A stretch of DNA of 53,739 nucleotides from Planctomycetota bacterium (lineage in GTDB: Bacteria; Planctomycetota; UBA1135; UBA2386): positions 1 to 53,739 of the forward strand of contig VGZG01000016.1 of the NCBI GenBank assembly GCA_016872675.1, in the 5' to 3' direction. Shown here piece by piece: positions 15,716 through 40,318 of this stretch. The notes beneath the pieces were generated by a model, which did not search any database, was not told the DNA's origin, and worked only from the letters and a program-made list of their open reading frames with translations. Made by a program: the position numbers and the translations under genes. Position 1 is the first letter of the stretch. Each line of letters begins with the position of its first letter.

Positions 15716-16108
15716 TCAGGCCGTCGTCTGGCGGCTGCGGCGGCGACGCAGGATCGCGAGTCCAGTGAGGCCGCTACCGACGAGCAGCAGCGTGCTCGGC
15801 TCTGGAACGGGCTGCCCGGCACCGCCGCCACCCGGGTTAGGGCCCGTGCCGCCGCCGCCGGTATTGCCACCGCCGCCGGTATTGCCACCGCCGCCGGTAT
15901 TGCCACCGCCGCCGGTATTGCCACCGCCTGGGTTTTGGTTGCTGCCACCGCCTGGGTTCGTCGTGCCGCCACCAGTCGTCGTGCCTGGATCGGGCGGGTT
16001 GATCGGCGGCGGTGGGTTGCTCGGCGCCGGCAACTTCGTGCCGTCACCCCGACCGCAGCCAGCGATAGCTAGCACGGCGATTGCAGCGAGGGATCGGCAG
16101 ATACGCAT
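15716..16108 (-). CDS. Small PEP-CTERM lipoprotein
   Basis: 130 residues from ATG 16108. The start is chosen because it gives a classical lipoprotein signal, MRICRSLAAIAVLAIAGC, with Cys18 as the lipid site; upstream in-frame ATGs (16159, 16147) would bury it. The mature part is a Pro/Gly/Asn-rich low-complexity chain with perfect NTGGGG repeats. The C terminus is a complete PEP-CTERM sorting signal: VPEP at about 101-104, a hydrophobic helix (STLLLVGSGLTGLAIL) and an RRRR tail. PEP-CTERM proteins are recognised by exosortase and exported, often with exopolysaccharide. Having both a lipobox and a PEP-CTERM helix is unusual. No exosortase gene is in the window. The function is unknown. Confidence 0.85.
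   Translation of the reverse strand: MRICRSLAAIAVLAIAGCGRGDGTKLPAPSNPPPPINPPDPGTTTGGGTTNPGGGSNQNPGGGNTGGGGNTGGGGNTGGGGNTGGGGTGPNPGGGGAGQPVPEPSTLLLVGSGLTGLAILRRRRSRQTTA
15861..15928 (-). repeat. 18-bp tandem repeat inside PEP-CTERM gene
   Basis: Three exact copies of an 18-bp unit (GTATTGCCACCGCCGCCG on the + strand) plus 14 nt of a fourth, with no spacers. They are in frame and encode the NTGGGG repeat of the lipoprotein. Being a multiple of three, copy-number changes would lengthen or shorten the linker without a frameshift. Confidence 0.9.
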
Positions 16109-16454
16109 GAGTGTCGGCTCAGGCACGAACACAGGTGAGTGTCGCATGCTCCCAAGCAATCGTCGTGCCGAAGACTACAACTTGAGCCGAATGGTAGCGC
16201 AAGTCCCGGTCAGGAGGGTCCGTGGTGGGTACGCGCGGCGAAGAGGCGGCTTGGCGACTAGTGTCGGCAACGGCCGAGCAGATCCGGGCCCCGGGCTAGG
16301 CGGCGGCAGTACGGCGAGTCCATGCCGGGCTGCTCGGCCCTTGGCATGGGCACATCGGCGAACCAGCCTTCGTGGGGCAGGAGCCGCGTTGCGTCCGCCA
16401 GGCATGCGTATCGGCGGGTTTCCGCCAGCTCCGTCCGTTCTCCGGCGCTACGGC
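16109..16454. other. Intergenic stretch without a supported gene
   Basis: This 346-bp gap lies between the stop of the DUF4388 gene and the start of the PEP-CTERM gene, both on the minus strand. Short open frames here lack homology features. It holds the hairpin listed at 16320-16349 and presumably the promoter of the PEP-CTERM gene near its left end, but I see no clear -35/-10 pair. Confidence 0.5.
16320..16349 (-). terminator. Hairpin downstream of DUF4388 gene
   Basis: CCATGCC (16320-16326) pairs with GGCATGG (16343-16349), and GGGC (16327-16330) pairs with GCCC (16337-16340), with a 6-nt loop and a 2-nt bulge. It is 105 nt past the stop codon on the minus strand and could end that transcript. 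No T run follows, so confidence is low. Confidence 0.3.
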
Positions 16455-19400
16455 TTAGCGCAAGTCCCCGAACACGCGGATCACGTGGTCGGGCTCGATG
16501 ACCCAGACGGCGCCCGCCGACGCCATCGCCCGGCCGCGCTTGCTCGCTGCAAGGCGGTAGAGCACGGCGCCGGTGGCCGCGTCGCGGACCTCCGGGCCAT
16601 GTGTCGATGGCACGACCAAGCGATTGCCAAGGACGCACAGCGGTCCGGTCGGTTCGCTCTGCGACGTCGGCAGTTTGCGCATCGTTGGACGCCGCAGACC
16701 ATTGCCCTGAACGATGCCTGACCGGAGTGTCTGCCAGAGATCGTCGCCCCGGACTGTTGGCGTGCCGAGCGGTTCGTCGGCGAGTTCCATGCGCCAGCGC
16801 TCGCCATCGTCGACGCCAAAGGCGACCAGGGTGCCGTCGTCGTCGTTGGCGTACACGGCGTCGCCGTCACACATCGCTTGGATGGCCGACGCAAGTCCGA
16901 GCGAACCGAGCAGTGTCAGTCGCCGTGCCGCATCCAGTCGGTATACGCCGCCGTCACGAGCGACCACGACGAGCCCGCCGTCGTCCAGCTTCCCCCAGGC
17001 GATGGCCGGCGAGGGTAGCGCGAGGCGCGTGACGTCGCCGCCGTCGCGACCGACGAACACGAGCTGGCTCAAGGTCGTTGCCACGGCGAAGCCATCGCCA
17101 TGTTCCTTCGGCTCGATCTCCGTCGGGCAGCCCGGCACGGACCAAGACAAAGTTCCCGTCCGCGCGTCGAGCGCGCGGAGTTCACCATCGACGGAACCGA
17201 CGACCACAACGGCCTGCGACAGAAGCGGCACGGTCAAGACGCCGGAGAGATCGTTGGAGCGGAACTGCCACCGAAGCACGCCGCCAGCGCCTAGGCGGGT
17301 CACGACGCCAGCCCGGTCGACAAGCAGTACGTCCTCGCCGACCGATGCTGGCGCCATCTCAATAGCGGTGTTGTGCTTGCACAGCTCGCGTGGCAGCAGC
17401 GCCAGCTCGCTGGCGACTGCCGCCGGCGAGTCGCCCTGCAAAGTCGCCTGCCACGGCTCGAAGCCAGGCATGGAGACCTCGACGGACATGGGGCTGCCCG
17501 GCACGCGCTCGATGAGGATAGGCGTCTCGCCGAGGTCCTTGCCGTTGCAAGCCACCCTGGCGCCGCGCGGCACGCTGTCGATCCGGCACGGCAGGCGCAC
17601 GATCCGGTCGAAGGTGACGTCAGCGTAGGTCTGACGAAGGGCCTCGAGATGCCGCAAAGCAGTGCCGTGGTCGCCGTTGGCGGTGGCGGCTCCGATCAGG
17701 TCGAGCTGTTGCACGATCGCAGCGTTGCGGGCCACACGCTCGCGGAAGTGCGCCGTCAAGGCTGGGTCGCCTTGTATGGCCGACTCGAGTTCTCGGTACT
17801 GAGCGAGCGCGGAGCGGAAGTCGTTGGCCGCCTCACGTTCGACGGCACGTTGGAAGAGCGGGTCCAGGCGCCGCTGTTCCGCGTTCTTCTCGAGCGCGGC
17901 CGCGTACTCGCCTGCCAGTTGTTCCGCCGCCTCGACGCCGGCCGTTCCGGCCTGCAGCGCGGCGGCAAGCCTCTGCTGTAGGTCGGCCGTGATCACGGCG
18001 TCGTTCGCGGCGTCGGCGATCGCCGCGCGGAGGCTGCGCACCGCGGCGCGGAGGTATGGCGGGCACACAGCCTCCAGATCCGCGCTGGCACGCAGCAGGT
18101 CGGCCCGGTCGAGCAGGCTTCGGGCCGCCGGCAGGTTGCGTCCGGCAAGGCTCCTGGCCGCCTGCTCGATCTCGTTGGCCAGCGCACCGAGCCGTGTTGC
18201 AGCGACGTCGCTGGTCTCCTGGCGCATGTCCGGATCGGCGGCGATGGACCGATACTCCGCCAGCGCAGCGGCGATGTCGCCAGCGGCCAAAGCATCAGCG
18301 GCGCGAGCAAGTCGCTTCGTCGCTTCTGCCCGCTTCTGCCGCATGGCCCGCGCCTGCTGCAGGCTCTGGCTATAGTTGACCTGCGTTTGCAGGTCATCGA
18401 TCACGTCGCATGGTCCAAGCCTCTCGCTCCACATGGCAAGGCTCGCGGCCGCACGGGCGTGGTCTTCCCGGGCAACGTGCTGCGCGACCTCCTCGCGCGC
18501 GCGCGCCATGTCGGCGAGATGGGCGCGGTGGCTCCAGACGGCGAAGCAGAACGCGCCAATGGTCAGCGCGGCAGCGAGCATGCTGACGCCGCGGAACACT
18601 CGGTCAGCCCTGGTCCGGCGCCGCGCCCTGAGCATCTTCGCAATGTCGCCGCGCGAACGATCGAGGCGTAGCAGCGCGTCGTAGGCCTCGATGGCCAACT
18701 GGATCTCGCCGCGGTCATCGTGCAGGCGGGCGAGCTCCTCGAGAACGGTGGTCGCGCCGGTCAGGTCGCGGGACTTCTGGCGGGCGCGCGCTTCGCGCAG
18801 CATGATCGCCGGGCAAATCGTGTTGGTGCGCCGCGCGTCTTCGATGATGTCGAGAGCGGTGGGTAGCTTGTCTGCGGCGATCAGCGCGTCGAGGAGGTCG
18901 ATGGTGCACTGCTCCAGCTCCGGCGAAGCCGCGGGTGCGTGCGCGATCAGGATGGTGCGTAGAAAGCTGAGGGACCCGACTTCGTTCGGCTCAAGCCTGC
19001 GAGCGTCGCGGGCGAGCGCGAGCGCTGTTTCGCTGTCGGGATGTCGCTGGGCGGCCTCGAGCAATAGATTGCTAGCGAGTTTGTTCTCGCCGAGGCCCTG
19101 TAGACAAAGCGCCATGCTCTGTAGGACGCCGACCGGACGATCCCCTTGGCGGTCGCGCAAGGTCTGCAGCGTCATGAGCGCTCGCTGGCCGTTGCCGGCC
19201 TCGGCGTAGCGCTGCGCGGCTGCGACCATCGCCGGTTCACCGATGTTGGCGATCAAGCGCATTCTGATCAGGTCGCGTGCAGCGCGGGCGGCCTCGAACA
19301 GGCCGGTGGTCGTGCGTTCCGCGTGCTCGCGATAGCTGCCGGCGCCGTCGATCGCACGCAGCAGTTCCAGATGCAGATCGCCGAGCGAGCCGTTCTGGGG

Positions 19401-20048
19401 CGCGTCGGCGACGCGCTGCGGCACTTCATCGAGCGAGCCGATGGCCGCGAGAATGGCGCCCCACTCGTCGGTGCGGCGCGCCACCTCGAGCAACAAGCCG
19501 TTGATCGCGTACTCAGGGCATGCCTCCAGAAGGTCGCGTAATTCGCCCTGTGGTTCGCCCTTCCAGAACTCGAAGCTGCCGCTGCGCCACGTGAACAGCG
19601 CGAACATGTCCTCGGCGACCTGGTCGGCGACGATCTGGTCGACGACCTGCTGGCTGACGACGCCGGACTCGACCAGCAGCAGGCCTAGCGGTCGCCGATC
19701 CTGGCGCTGCCGCAGCAGCGCGCTGCGCAGCGCCTCCTGACTGCAGAAGTTACCGCTGACGAGGCGTTGACCGATCCGGCGCGCGAGCAGGCGGCCGGGT
19801 ATGTGAAGTCGGAGATACCCGTCGCGGAAGTGCGCCTGTCGTTCCTCGAGGGGGTTGCGGATGCGCAGCACGCCCTCCATCTTCGTCATGGCGAGCGTCT
19901 GGAAGACATCGGCGAGCTGGATTTGCTCGAGATCGCCGCGCATCGTGACGCTCTGCGTTTCGACCGACTGCGACGGTTGTTCCTGCGCCTCCGCCGAGAG
20001 CAGGAAATCGACTTCTGCTTCGCTGAGGATCTCGGACCGTTCAACCAT
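16455..20048 (-). CDS. DUF4388/PEGA/beta-propeller membrane protein
   Basis: 1197 residues from ATG 20048. The order is: a short LSEAEVDFLLS motif (about 8-18) like the N-terminal CheY-binding motif of FliM; a DUF4388 domain (about 36-110) and its helical extension; a helical TPR-like region (about 210-470); a basic stretch and one transmembrane helix (about 484-506); long alpha-helical, coiled-coil-rich repeats (510-800); a PEGA domain (about 809-873, DSVPRGARVACNGKDLGETP); and a C-terminal PQQ/WD-type beta-propeller (about 885-1195; SVDGELRALDARTGTLSW). The N-terminal half should be cytoplasmic and the PEGA-propeller half periplasmic. DUF4388 is seen in signalling and gliding-associated proteins. 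The specific role is unknown; a transmembrane signal or scaffold protein is inference. A TTG at 20066 is another possible start. The chosen start overlaps that of the divergent gene. Confidence 0.8.
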   Translation of the reverse strand: MVERSEILSEAEVDFLLSAEAQEQPSQSVETQSVTMRGDLEQIQLADVFQTLAMTKMEGVLRIRNPLEERQAHFRDGYLRLHIPGRLLARRIGQRLVSGNFCSQEALRSALLRQRQDRRPLGLLLVESGVVSQQVVDQIVADQVAEDMFALFTWRSGSFEFWKGEPQGELRDLLEACPEYAINGLLLEVARRTDEWGAILAAIGSLDEVPQRVADAPQNGSLGDLHLELLRAIDGAGSYREHAERTTTGLFEAARAARDLIRMRLIANIGEPAMVAAAQRYAEAGNGQRALMTLQTLRDRQGDRPVGVLQSMALCLQGLGENKLASNLLLEAAQRHPDSETALALARDARRLEPNEVGSLSFLRTILIAHAPAASPELEQCTIDLLDALIAADKLPTALDIIEDARRTNTICPAIMLREARARQKSRDLTGATTVLEELARLHDDRGEIQLAIEAYDALLRLDRSRGDIAKMLRARRRTRADRVFRGVSMLAAALTIGAFCFAVWSHRAHLADMARAREEVAQHVAREDHARAAASLAMWSERLGPCDVIDDLQTQVNYSQSLQQARAMRQKRAEATKRLARAADALAAGDIAAALAEYRSIAADPDMRQETSDVAATRLGALANEIEQAARSLAGRNLPAARSLLDRADLLRASADLEAVCPPYLRAAVRSLRAAIADAANDAVITADLQQRLAAALQAGTAGVEAAEQLAGEYAAALEKNAEQRRLDPLFQRAVEREAANDFRSALAQYRELESAIQGDPALTAHFRERVARNAAIVQQLDLIGAATANGDHGTALRHLEALRQTYADVTFDRIVRLPCRIDSVPRGARVACNGKDLGETPILIERVPGSPMSVEVSMPGFEPWQATLQGDSPAAVASELALLPRELCKHNTAIEMAPASVGEDVLLVDRAGVVTRLGAGGVLRWQFRSNDLSGVLTVPLLSQAVVVVGSVDGELRALDARTGTLSWSVPGCPTEIEPKEHGDGFAVATTLSQLVFVGRDGGDVTRLALPSPAIAWGKLDDGGLVVVARDGGVYRLDAARRLTLLGSLGLASAIQAMCDGDAVYANDDDGTLVAFGVDDGERWRMELADEPLGTPTVRGDDLWQTLRSGIVQGNGLRRPTMRKLPTSQSEPTGPLCVLGNRLVVPSTHGPEVRDAATGAVLYRLAASKRGRAMASAGAVWVIEPDHVIRVFGDLR

Positions 20049-21534
20049 GACAGGGCATCCCTTCAAATCGCGCAGCCGTCGAAGCCTCGACGGTTTGCGC
20101 CTGGGGTCGTTGCTCCTGGTTATCGGTCCCGTGGCGGTCCTGTCTCAACCTGCCCGGTGCCAGCTCGGCGCCGCCGATGGCAGCGGCCCTTGGCTGGCTT
20201 CTGCGCGCGACAGCGCGCTCCGTTCCCGCTGCTCAGACGCCTTGGCGGCGCCGGATCCCACAGAATTGTGGCGCCTAGTTCGCAGCAGCGGTCCAGGCGC
20301 CGTGGCGCCGTTGTGGAGCCTGTTGAACGAGGCGGTCAAGGACGAGGCGCGCTGGCGTCTTGCCGCCGCGATTGTCGCCGCCGGCGGCGTCGCCGAGGAC
20401 GCCAACCTGCTCCGTTGGTCGGCTGCGGCAGGTCGCTCGGCCCGCGACCGCGCGTTCGTCGCCTTCCTGCTCGCGCTCGGTCCGGCGCGGCTGGTCGGCG
20501 ATGCCCAGGGTGTCTTCGACTCCCTGCGCAGCCCGAGCGACTTCGCCATGGCGGTCGCGGCGTGCGCGGCGGCGCGTTTTCCGCGCAGCCATAGCTTCGA
20601 AGGCGCGACGTCGAACGATGTCGGCGTCGCAGCGGCGCTGGCGTACGCCGGGGCCGCGGCGACGCTACGGGCGACGCCGCCGGTCCGCAGCGACCGCCGG
20701 GAGCCCCTGTGGTGGCGCGGCACGCTCCTGCGCGCGGCGCATGCCGGTGCCAGCGGAATCGTGCGCGAGCGTGCGTTGGCGCTCCGCTTTGGCGGCGATG
20801 TGGAGGACGTAGGCCTGCGCGCTGCCGCGTGGCGCTGCGCCGCCATGGCTGGAGACGCGACGAGCGATGGTGAGCGACCCGAACCGTTCACGCTGGAGGC
20901 GCTGGCGGCCGACGCCGGCACGCGGTCGCGATTCCGGGCCTGGTTCGACGGCGTGGTGGCGCCGCGGTACGAACATCCGGAGCGCTTGGCGGTCGCGCAG
21001 ATGCTCGCAGCGACGCCTTCTGAGGTGGTCAGCGCCGCCGCGCGGTGGCGTGGCGACGCGACCGCCGAGCGGCACGTCGCGCTGGCCGTCGCTTGGCGCA
21101 TCGCCGGTGGCGAGTCGCTCGACATCGCCGGCGGCGAGGATGCCGCATGGGCCCCGGTCGCGGTGGCGCGGCGAAGCTCCGTCGCGGTCGACGCCGTCAC
21201 CGACGAGCCGTTGCGCGCGGCATTGCAACTACGCCTCGTCGGACGTCTCGGCGACGAGCCATTCCGCGCCGCGCTCGAGGATGGGCTGTGGCGATGGGGG
21301 AGCCATCCGGCGCTTGCCGTCTGGCGCCTCGAACGTCTGTTCGTTCGCGACCTCGTGCTCGCTGGCAGCCAGGCCGGCGCCGGCATGTACCAGCCGCACG
21401 TGCCGCCCGAGCAACGCTTCCTGCTCGAGGGCATCGGCGCCAGCGATCCGTGGTTCAGAGCGGCCGTTGCAGCCAATGAGTTCTTCGAACCCGCCACCAT
21501 GCCGATGCCGGCGGCGGCGAAGATGGCGCGTTAG
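20047..21534 (+). CDS. Secreted helical-repeat protein, unknown
   Basis: A 495-residue protein. ATG 20047 is chosen because it gives a good Sec signal peptide: basic KSRSRRSLDGLR, then the hydrophobic LGSLLLVIGPVAVLS, with cleavage likely near RCQLG. The mature protein is Ala/Arg-rich with repeated amphipathic helices, similar to HEAT or PBS-lyase repeats, and has no catalytic motif I can identify. Its first codon shares bases with the start codon of the divergent DUF4388 gene (CATG at 20046-20049), suggesting the two are expressed from internal promoters or controlled together. It converges with the cysteine desulfurase gene across 54 nt. Confidence 0.7.
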   Translation: MTGHPFKSRSRRSLDGLRLGSLLLVIGPVAVLSQPARCQLGAADGSGPWLASARDSALRSRCSDALAAPDPTELWRLVRSSGPGAVAPLWSLLNEAVKDEARWRLAAAIVAAGGVAEDANLLRWSAAAGRSARDRAFVAFLLALGPARLVGDAQGVFDSLRSPSDFAMAVAACAAARFPRSHSFEGATSNDVGVAAALAYAGAAATLRATPPVRSDRREPLWWRGTLLRAAHAGASGIVRERALALRFGGDVEDVGLRAAAWRCAAMAGDATSDGERPEPFTLEALAADAGTRSRFRAWFDGVVAPRYEHPERLAVAQMLAATPSEVVSAAARWRGDATAERHVALAVAWRIAGGESLDIAGGEDAAWAPVAVARRSSVAVDAVTDEPLRAALQLRLVGRLGDEPFRAALEDGLWRWGSHPALAVWRLERLFVRDLVLAGSQAGAGMYQPHVPPEQRFLLEGIGASDPWFRAAVAANEFFEPATMPMPAAAKMAR

Positions 21535-36706: not shown

Positions 36707-39700
36707 TCAGCGCGGCAGCGCCGGCAGTTCTTCGTAGCCCTTGCCGTCGTGCAGGAAGCGCTGCACCGCGTCCGCGGGCCAGAACCAGGACGACGGGCCG
36801 TGGCTCAGGTAGCTGCTACCGGCGCCGGTCTCGATCGCGCGCGTGCGGCCATCGCTCAGCGTGGCGCGATGCCGACGGCCAACGCCCTGCGGATTGCCGG
36901 CCGGCCCGCGCTTGCTCACGCGGAAGGCATCCCCCGGCCAGCGCGCCGACCACAGCGGCCCGTCGTTGCGGCTGCCGAGCAGGGTCGGGCCGGCAGCGAT
37001 GAGCGCCTTGTGGTCGCCGAGCTGCACGAGGCCGTGCTCAGCGGGCGGCACGACCGCCAGCACGCCGGCGACGTCGCGCAGCACCAGCAGCGTGCCGCCG
37101 TCGAGGCGTCCCGTCTCCGGCTCCGGCGCGTAGCTGTTCTCAGCGGCGATCAGGTCGTTGCCGGCGGCAACCATGCCGAAGAGCGGCGCCAACTGCGCGA
37201 GGCGTGGCAGCGGCAGGACGGTGAAGCGGCCGCCGCCGTCGTTGCGCAGCAGGCTGTTGGCGAGCGTCGTCGCGCGCAGTTGCCCGCAGTTCGCCAGCTT
37301 GTCCTGGCCGTAGATCTCGGGCAGCAGCGCGCGCGCGAACAGGTCGTAGGTCGGAAAGCGCTGCTTGAGCGCCGGCATCGCCTGGCTGCTGCAGCTGCGG
37401 CCGCGCACCGGCAGCAGCTTGTCGCCGTCGTACTTCGCTTCGATCAGGTCGCGCGTGCCGTTGTCGTCGAAGTCGCCGAAGTAGAGGGCGGCGGGTTGCT
37501 CGGGCGACGCCTTGTACTTGCTGTTCAGCCCCTGGTTGCCGGCGACGTAGTCGAGGTCGCCGTCGGCGTCGCAGTCCCACGCGCACAGGCTGTTCCACCA
37601 GCCGACGTGCGGCGACAGCCCGGCGGCGGCCGTGGCGTCGGCGAAGCGGCCGCCGTCGTTGCGCAGGAAACGGATCGGCTGCCAGTGCGCCGCGACCAGC
37701 AGGTCCGGATCGCCGTCGCCATCGGCGTCGCTGAAGATCGCGCAGGTCACCATGCCGGCGGTCAGCAAGGCCGGCGCGAACTCCGCGGTGGCGTCGACGA
37801 AGCGGCCGGCGTCGTTGCGGTAGAGGCGCGTCGGCGGCGCGTCGGGGTAGCGGCCGGGCACGAGCCGGCCGGCGACGCACAGGTCGAGGTCGCCGTCGCC
37901 GTCGACGTCGGCCGCAGCGGCGTGGCCCGATGACGTCCGCACGTCGGGCAATGCGTCGTCGTCGCGGACGAAGCGCCGGCCGCCGTCGTTGCGGTAGAGG
38001 CGGTCGCGCAGCGCGGCGTGGCCTTCGGGCAGGTCGGCGCCGCCGCTGGCGACGAACAGGTCGAGGTCGCCGTCGCGGTCGTGGTCGAGCCAGAGCACGC
38101 CGAGGTCTTCGCAGCCGGCGTCGGCCTGCCACGGTCCGGCCTGCGATTGCCAGCCCGTCGGCGTGGCGAGGTAGAGCGCCGCTTCCTGGCCACGGGCACC
38201 GCCGACGAACAGGTCGTCGTCGCCATCGCCGTCGGCGTCGCCAAGGGCGAGGCCAGGGCCGAGACGCGAAACGCCGGCCGGCAGCAGCGGCTGGTCGCGG
38301 TACTCGTCGAAGTCATCGTCGCGGTGCGTGTATGGCGGCGGCGGTGGCGCGGGCGGGGTCGCGGCGCGCGGCGCGCGCGCTGCCGCGGCAGCCGTCGGCT
38401 CGCGCACGGTGTGGCACTGGCCTGCGCGCACGTCGCGCAGCGTCTGCACGCGGCCCGATGGCCACTCGATGCGCAGTTCGCTCGCCGCCGCAGCATCGCC
38501 GAGGCCGAAGTGCAACTCGGGCGCTTGGCCGGACAGGTAGCCGCGCGACGACCAACACTCACGCACCAGCACGCGGCCGTCGGGCAGCGTCGCGCTGGCG
38601 CGCGCGCCGAGGCCGAAGCGGTTGCCGCCCTGGCCCTGCAGGCGCACGGTGAAGGCGTTGCCGTCGGCGGTGCGGTTCTCGTACACGGCCGCCGGGCTGT
38701 TCCAGTTGTTGACGACGACGTCGAGGTCGCCGTCGCCGTCGAGGTCGCAGACGGCGGCGCCGTGACTGACCGCCTCGAGGTCGAGGCCCCAGTCGGCGCC
38801 GGTCGTGGCGAACTGCAGGTGGCCGAGGTTGCGCAGCGCGAGGTTGCGCTCGGGCACCGAGCGCACGTTCTGGATCAGGTCGATGGCGGCGCGCTGGCGG
38901 CCTTCGGCCCACAGCGCCTTGACGCGCAGGTCGAGGTCGGGGTCCGTGTCGAAGCGCGCGATGCCGTTGGTGGCGAAGACGTCGAGCCGAGAGTCGTTGT
39001 CGAGGTCGCCGAACAGCACGCTCCAGGTCCAGTCGGTGCTGGCAAGCCCGGCGAGATGCGCCGCTTCCTGGAACACGCCGAGGCCGGTGTTGCGCAGCAG
39101 GGCGTTGCGCATCACCTGCGGCGGCCGGCTGTGCAGCAGCACGGCGCGCTCCTCGTCCATGTCGCCCATGAGCACCTTCGCCTTCGCGTGCGTGGTCATG
39201 CTCATGTCGGCGACCAGCAGGTCGAGGTGGCCATCGCCGTCGGCGTCGCCGGCGTCGCTGCCCATGCCGTAGTACGCGGTGTGCGGCACGACCTCCGCAG
39301 TGACGTCGCGGAAGCGGCCGCCGCCTTCGTTGTGGTACAGCGTGTCCGGCGATTCGAGGTCGTTGGCCACGTACAGGTCGGGCAGACCGTCGTGGTCGTA
39401 GTCCCACCAGGTCGCCGACAGGCCCATGCCGTTGCCGGCGATCCCGGCGGCGGCGCTGACGTCGACGAAGCGGCCGCCGACGTTGCGCAGCAGGCGATCT
39501 GGCTGGCCGGCGATGAAGCGTTGGCCGCGGAAGACCAGGAAGTGCTCGCGCAGCGCCGCCGGCAGGTCATCGTCGCGGCGCAGGCCGTCGGCGCGCGCGA
39601 GGTCGTCGAGTTGCTGCAACTGCGCCAGCGTCGGCGCCATCGCGGCGGGCGTGCGGGTCGTTGCGGCGCCCGGCCGGAAGCCGCCGAGAACCTCCGGCGT

Positions 39701-40318
39701 CAGCGCCCAGCCCGGATGTAGCGCGCGGTTGGTGAGCAGATAGCAGTCGAGCTGGCCATCGCGGTCGTAGTCGGCGAAGGCGGCCATCGTCGACGCGGCG
39801 GCGATGTCGAGCCCGAACCTCGCCGCGTTCTCGCGGAAGGTGCCGTCGCCCTGGTTCTCGTACAGCAGGTTCTTCGCCTCGAGATTGCAGACGTACAGGT
39901 CGAGGTCGCCGTCGCCGTCGAGGTCGACGAAGCAGGCGCCAGTGCCCCAGGCATCGCCGCCATCGACGCCGCCGGCGCTCGCGGTGGCGTCTTCGAAGCG
40001 CATCGGCGCCACCTGGCGGAACAAACGGTTGGGCCCATCCTGCGACACCAGGTACAGGTCGAGGTCGCCGTCGCCGTCGTAGTCGCCGGTCGCCAGGCCC
40101 GCGCCGTTGGTCAGGTACGTGTAGGCGTTCTCGCGGCGCAGTTCGTTGGTGAAGGCCAGGCCGGTCGCCGCGGGCGGCAGCAGACGGAAACGTGGCCCGT
40201 CGCCGCCGGCTGTCGGCCGCAGCGGCGTCGTCGTCCACGCTGAGCCCGGGTCGGCCCCGCAGGCAGCGGCGAGGGTCAGCAACAGGCTGGCGGCAGGAAA
40301 ACGACGGGTCGCGAGCAT
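36707..40318 (-). CDS. CRTAC1-type FG-GAP/ASPIC-UnbV lipoprotein
   Basis: A 1203-residue exported protein. A signal peptide ending in LAAAC (Cys20) marks a lipoprotein. Residues ~70-550 are FG-GAP/VCBS repeats with many D-x-D-G-D-G-D-L-D calcium-binding loops. An ASPIC/UnbV domain follows (about 551-640; GNRFGLGARASATLPDGR...GYLSGQAPELHFGLG), then a Pro/Ala linker (645-660) and a second FG-GAP array (about 675-1090). At the C-terminal end is a second, degenerate UnbV-like segment (NPQGVGRRHRATLSDGR...SYLSHGPSSWFW). The repeats form Ca2+-dependent beta-propellers like integrin alpha chains. Proteins of this type are abundant in Planctomycetota and are usually surface or periplasmic binding proteins. 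The ligand is unknown. ATG 40318 is the start. Confidence 0.88.
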   Translation of the reverse strand: MLATRRFPAASLLLTLAAACGADPGSAWTTTPLRPTAGGDGPRFRLLPPAATGLAFTNELRRENAYTYLTNGAGLATGDYDGDGDLDLYLVSQDGPNRLFRQVAPMRFEDATASAGGVDGGDAWGTGACFVDLDGDGDLDLYVCNLEAKNLLYENQGDGTFRENAARFGLDIAAASTMAAFADYDRDGQLDCYLLTNRALHPGWALTPEVLGGFRPGAATTRTPAAMAPTLAQLQQLDDLARADGLRRDDDLPAALREHFLVFRGQRFIAGQPDRLLRNVGGRFVDVSAAAGIAGNGMGLSATWWDYDHDGLPDLYVANDLESPDTLYHNEGGGRFRDVTAEVVPHTAYYGMGSDAGDADGDGHLDLLVADMSMTTHAKAKVLMGDMDEERAVLLHSRPPQVMRNALLRNTGLGVFQEAAHLAGLASTDWTWSVLFGDLDNDSRLDVFATNGIARFDTDPDLDLRVKALWAEGRQRAAIDLIQNVRSVPERNLALRNLGHLQFATTGADWGLDLEAVSHGAAVCDLDGDGDLDVVVNNWNSPAAVYENRTADGNAFTVRLQGQGGNRFGLGARASATLPDGRVLVRECWSSRGYLSGQAPELHFGLGDAAAASELRIEWPSGRVQTLRDVRAGQCHTVREPTAAAAARAPRAATPPAPPPPPYTHRDDDFDEYRDQPLLPAGVSRLGPGLALGDADGDGDDDLFVGGARGQEAALYLATPTGWQSQAGPWQADAGCEDLGVLWLDHDRDGDLDLFVASGGADLPEGHAALRDRLYRNDGGRRFVRDDDALPDVRTSSGHAAAADVDGDGDLDLCVAGRLVPGRYPDAPPTRLYRNDAGRFVDATAEFAPALLTAGMVTCAIFSDADGDGDPDLLVAAHWQPIRFLRNDGGRFADATAAAGLSPHVGWWNSLCAWDCDADGDLDYVAGNQGLNSKYKASPEQPAALYFGDFDDNGTRDLIEAKYDGDKLLPVRGRSCSSQAMPALKQRFPTYDLFARALLPEIYGQDKLANCGQLRATTLANSLLRNDGGGRFTVLPLPRLAQLAPLFGMVAAGNDLIAAENSYAPEPETGRLDGGTLLVLRDVAGVLAVVPPAEHGLVQLGDHKALIAAGPTLLGSRNDGPLWSARWPGDAFRVSKRGPAGNPQGVGRRHRATLSDGRTRAIETGAGSSYLSHGPSSWFWPADAVQRFLHDGKGYEELPALPR

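Follow-up and report, generated by a model that had tools for sequence, protein, structure and literature searches.

Divergent planctomycete genes with start codons in one CATG and a promoter-like element within signal-peptide codons

The start codons of two divergent genes of a lake planctomycete overlap in a single palindromic CATG at positions 20046–20049 of the window, the whole stretch of 53,739 nucleotides that was analysed. The locus raises the question of whether both starts are genuine and, if so, where the regulatory signals of genes packed in this way could lie. The two ATG codons were found where the preliminary description had placed them, at 20048–20046 for the minus gene and at 20047–20049 for the plus gene. 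The main features of the locus are as follows.

16455–20048, minus strand: DUF4388 (PATAN) protein with TPR-like, TM, PEGA and PQQ beta-propeller regions, 1197 aa (Pfam; relatives with conserved M1; model)
20047–21534, plus strand: secreted all-helical protein without a Pfam family, 495 aa (AlphaFold model with pLDDT 80, helical repeat)
20046–20049, strand not applicable: palindromic CATG with overlapping starts (sequence; in-frame in 20 of 21 genomes of the supported clade)

The gene pair was traced through the GTDB family of the window, in 34 genomes with 28 readable junctions; these relatives are assembled genomes of Planctomycetota, mostly MAGs, and their kinship inflates simple counts. 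A first contig scan with a single-protein query gave no matches. On every contig where both genes were found, the two are divergent. Their neighbourhood is conserved as well: in the five stretches examined, an aminotransferase V gene and a ThiF gene are located past the plus gene. A short minus-strand ORF directly downstream of the DUF4388 gene (15716–16159) contains GNTGGGG repeats and ends with the PEP-CTERM-like C-terminal sequence VPEPSTLLLVGSGLTGLAILRRRR. Elsewhere in the window, the minus strand at 36707–40318 encodes a protein of 1203 residues with FG-GAP repeats and an UnbV/ASPIC domain. A search of PDB folds with the model of the plus protein (pLDDT 80) gave no significant match.

Both start codons are backed by 28 relatives from the same family. 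The N-terminus of the minus protein aligns from M1 in all relatives and continues into L-x3-E-[VI]-[DEN]-F-L-L, so the minus start holds as described, with the motif close behind a conserved M1. A clade supported by an SH-aLRT of 99 in the tree of DUF4388 proteins comprises 21 genomes, of which 20 keep the in-frame CATG and one, G005, has CATT; the overlap is conserved in relatives. Three more distant genomes (G010, G021 and G013) have a longer spacing that is out of frame, and the shared start is therefore a trait of the 21-genome clade, perhaps also of G015. Altogether, the shared in-frame ATG was lost or never present in G005 (CATT), G020, G013, G019, G044, G010 and G021, and all of them retain both genes. 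The claim that mutation of one gene must affect the other was too strong in view of such relatives.

The plus start was approached through its reading frame. The N-terminus of the plus protein has a basic n-region and a hydrophobic core, giving the following feature.

20047–20163, plus strand: signal peptide of the plus protein, MTGHPFKSRSRRSLDGLRLGSLLLVIGPVAVLSQPARCQ, with the n-region running from the CATG (alignment, coding test; cleavage site placed by eye)

The distance between the CATG and a fixed block of the signal peptide is 66, 72, 75, 78, 81 or 96 in the 21-genome clade, 57 in G015 and 48 in G020, in every case a multiple of three. At least eight length changes within the clade, inferred on the DUF4388 protein tree, are all multiples of three. 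Between the CATG and the signal peptide, the start frame has no stop over 607 codons, compared to 13 and 9 stops in the other plus-strand frames. In-frame stops upstream of the shared ATG, one codon away in G017 and three codons away in G048, exclude or nearly exclude longer forms of the plus protein in these genomes. On these grounds the stretch between the CATG and the signal peptide behaves like coding sequence. Both frames are coding through the overlap, which is conserved in relatives, and the proposed plus start at the shared CATG agrees with both the length changes and the stop counts.

Two simpler accounts of the start region bear on this result. The plus gene could begin downstream, at TTG 20095 or similar, and leave an ordinary short intergenic spacer; the n-regions are indeed long for signal peptides, in-frame TTG and GTG codons lie nearer to the hydrophobic core, and a Shine-Dalgarno sequence before the plus ATG is not clear. 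We nevertheless consider this improbable, since all eight length changes between the CATG and the conserved element described below preserve the frame, stops are confined to the other frames, and none of the downstream starts is conserved among relatives. The other account accepts both starts and treats the shared CATG as functionless, a result of close packing and of a preference for C before ATG. Among 34 flagellin starts of the family, 22 (about 65%) have C immediately before the ATG, where it is the commonest base, so that an opposite-strand ATG is often to be expected at a start codon; moreover, G005 and the outgroups work without a shared CATG. Retention of C in 20 of 21 genomes is slightly above this preference (p about 0.0015 without correction for relatedness), and we give this account an even chance. 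With this control on the flagellin starts, conservation of the CATG was discounted as a stand-alone proof. The case rests on the coding evidence of the opposite frame, the CATG alone being weak evidence, and the shared CATG itself is probably no regulatory device but a compact consequence of the bias toward C in front of ATG.

A candidate regulatory signal was found within the signal-peptide codons of the plus gene; it points at the DUF4388 gene, whose ATG lies about 70 bases downstream of it.

20121–20148, minus strand: promoter-like element TTGAG (20148–20144)-N17-CCGATA (20126–20121) (28 of 28 junctions, synonymous constraint, single genomic site)

On the plus strand the element reads TATCGG-N17-CTCAA, or a near form of it, at all readable junctions. 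TTGAG, CCGA and the 17-base spacer are identical in 28 of 28 junctions; the full CCGATA box is present in 25, with variants CCGATG in G019, CCGAAA in G048 and CCGACA in G049. Codon choice in this region departs from the background. The codon preceding ATC ends in T in 27 of 28 junctions (9.6% in a background of 12,585 codons of these genes), the glutamine codon is always CAA (19.6% in the background), and the codon preceding glutamine always ends in CT, as do only 5–8% of such Ala, Ser and Pro codons in the background. The residue before ATC varies between V, A, S, P, L, C and G, therefore the constraint acts on DNA. The signal peptide thus holds a conserved pair of boxes under synonymous constraint in the codons of its host gene. 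The orientation of the element, the spacing of its two boxes by about two turns of the helix, and its location 48 to 173 bases before the DUF4388 start, a distance that varies among relatives, fit a promoter of DUF4388. Sequence comparison shows divergent starts in one CATG together with a bipartite DNA element that is fixed in the signal-peptide codons of the plus gene and oriented toward DUF4388.

The boxes were compared with known promoter types. The consensus of sigma-28 is TAAAGTTT-N11-GCCGATAA (PMC2859248). The -10 box of the element is GCCGATAA-like, with CCGA in all 28 junctions and CCGATA in 25. The upstream box is TTGAG at N17, not TAAAG or TCAAG at N15 from CCGA, and the element is kept in G013, G014 and G043, where flagellin and FliM matches are absent. 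The -35 box, the spacing and the persistence of the element in these three genomes led to the rejection of a sigma-28 promoter. FliA-like sigma genes are still present in G013, G014, G041 and G043, the genomes that gave no flagellin and no FliM match. Upstream regions of the flagellin genes of the family (L080–L105), read by eye, contain CTCAAG about 15 bases before CCGA; this TCAAG-N15-CCGA arrangement is likely a sigma-28 promoter type, unlike the element considered here. A scan for standard sigma-70 promoters found nothing, the boxes fit no standard sigma-70 consensus, and an Rfam search gave no match.

The exact element occurs at one site in the 3.58 Mb genome. Across the 34 genomes the exact motif has 51 matches. 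Counted by eye, 25 of them are at this locus, about 15 belong to one similar sequence that recurs, and about 11 lie elsewhere. A backwards control gave 11 matches, and the motif was rejected as a regulon in the absence of enrichment in these genomes. The recurrent sequence, TTGAGTGCGCTGCTGCCGATTGCCGATA with variants, is found once per genome (G002, G004, G008, G009, G011, G012, G015, G016, G045 and others) and is probably conserved coding sequence that only resembles the motif. Such a locus-unique element is unusual for a sigma-factor promoter, and this counts against that assignment.

The preliminary description had also proposed that the promoter and the ribosome-binding site of each gene lie inside its partner. 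For promoters this held on one side: the promoter-like element of DUF4388 lies in plus-gene codons, in 28 of 28 junctions and under synonymous constraint, and no counterpart was found for the plus gene. The third-base composition of DUF4388 codons 1–240 revealed no pair of boxes; only E10, E12 and D39 stand out, and no third-position constraint in this region is as strong as at TTGAG-N17-CCGATA. The ribosome-binding site inside the partner is present locally, before the DUF4388 ATG.

20058–20063, minus strand: AAGGGA, Shine-Dalgarno-like, inside the plus coding region, 9 bases before the DUF4388 ATG (sequence; not conserved in relatives)

This part of the proposal does not extend to most relatives, as most genomes of the clade have a weak Shine-Dalgarno sequence or none on either side.

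The N-terminus of the DUF4388 protein contains a motif that resembles a segment of FliM.

19998–20030, minus strand: ILSEAEVDFLL, FliM-like N-terminal motif (L8, E12, F15, L16 and L17 invariant)

Conservation of its core, L-x3-E-V-[DE]-F-L-L, extends over 28 relatives, some of whose genomes have no flagellin and no FliM. FliM of the same genome (L078) carries EILSNDEIDALL, to which ILS-x2-EVDFLL of the DUF4388 N-terminus is similar. The EIDALL motif of FliM and FliY binds CheY-P (PMC9126983). The DUF4388 motif shares with this peptide the form of a helix in a disordered tail, but has an A to F change inside the motif, sits on a PATAN/TPR membrane protein, and is kept in relatives that lack flagellin and FliM. 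As a lead only, the motif could mark an output protein that binds a CheY-like partner. In outgroup families, the DUF4388 relatives examined lack the TTGAG-N17-CCGATA element, and no plus gene was found.

The best overall explanation, to which we assign a probability of roughly 0.6, is that the two genes start in the shared CATG and that the element is the presumed promoter of DUF4388, placed inside the coding sequence of its neighbour. The DUF4388 transcript would then begin near 20114, some 7 bases downstream of the CCGATA box, with a leader of about 65 bases antisense to approximately the first 22 codons of the plus gene. The promoter of the plus gene would have to lie upstream, within DUF4388 and under no strong conservation, and the two units would interfere with each other locally.

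The element always co-occurs with the plus gene, and the comparison cannot separate which gene is its target. It could instead be an operator or an RNA element that controls the plus gene, such as a roadblock, a repressor site or an mRNA element. Its nearly fixed place relative to the cleavage site of the plus protein, its variable distance from DUF4388, and its uniqueness to the locus, as for the site of a dedicated regulator, agree with this proposal; however, the 17-base spacer, the sigma-28-like -10 box and the orientation fit a promoter, and Rfam offers no match, so that we regard it as unlikely. A further proposal is an excludon-like switch, in which the 5' transcripts overlap, the polymerases collide and high expression of one gene shuts off the other; overlapping 5' ends would follow if both starts are real and the promoter is correctly assigned. 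The excludon concept allows for 5' overlaps that are long and for transcription of one partner by alternative sigma factors (PMC7154746). The overlap predicted here is short and the plus promoter was not found; we consider such a switch doubtful. We speculate further, and at long odds, that a dedicated single-target regulator or sigma factor might recognise TTGAG-N17-CCGATA, its site having been fixed for the age of the bacterial family in the signal-peptide codons of the partner, and that a hard-wired, mutually exclusive switch might be built from the secreted protein and the DUF4388 membrane sensor that bears the FliM-like peptide.

The favoured reading, a shared start with a DUF4388 promoter in the neighbouring gene, has partial parallels in known systems. 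Head-to-head overlapping genes are known in prokaryotes but under-represented, and the need for regulatory sites upstream is the probable reason (PMC2174442). The locus described here has opposite strands and overlapping 5' ends in common with them; it differs in that only the start codon is shared, that this is kept across many genera, and that the codons of the partner contain a conserved promoter-like element. Divergent overlaps are thought to be rare since each gene needs upstream regulatory DNA, and the locus suggests a way round this: a promoter-like element is written into the signal peptide of the partner, where codon choice absorbs it. Its 28 natural variants provide a clean test case for coding and promoter constraints acting on the same bases, and a candidate promoter type can be named in uncultured Planctomycetota.

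Intragenic FliA (sigma-28) promoters of E. coli, some of which drive a neighbouring gene, as the one inside flhC drives motA (PMC4183435), resemble the predicted promoter in their location inside a gene and in a CCGATA-like -10 box. In contrast to them, the TTGAG box and 17-base spacer misfit TAAAG-N15-CCGATAA, and the element is antisense to its host gene and kept in genomes without flagellin and FliM. In excludons, overlapping divergent transcripts can make genes mutually exclusive (PMC7154746), while the overlap at our locus is a short one predicted from sequence. Set beside these systems, the locus is a conserved variant in which two genes share their start and the signal peptide of one carries a promoter-like element.
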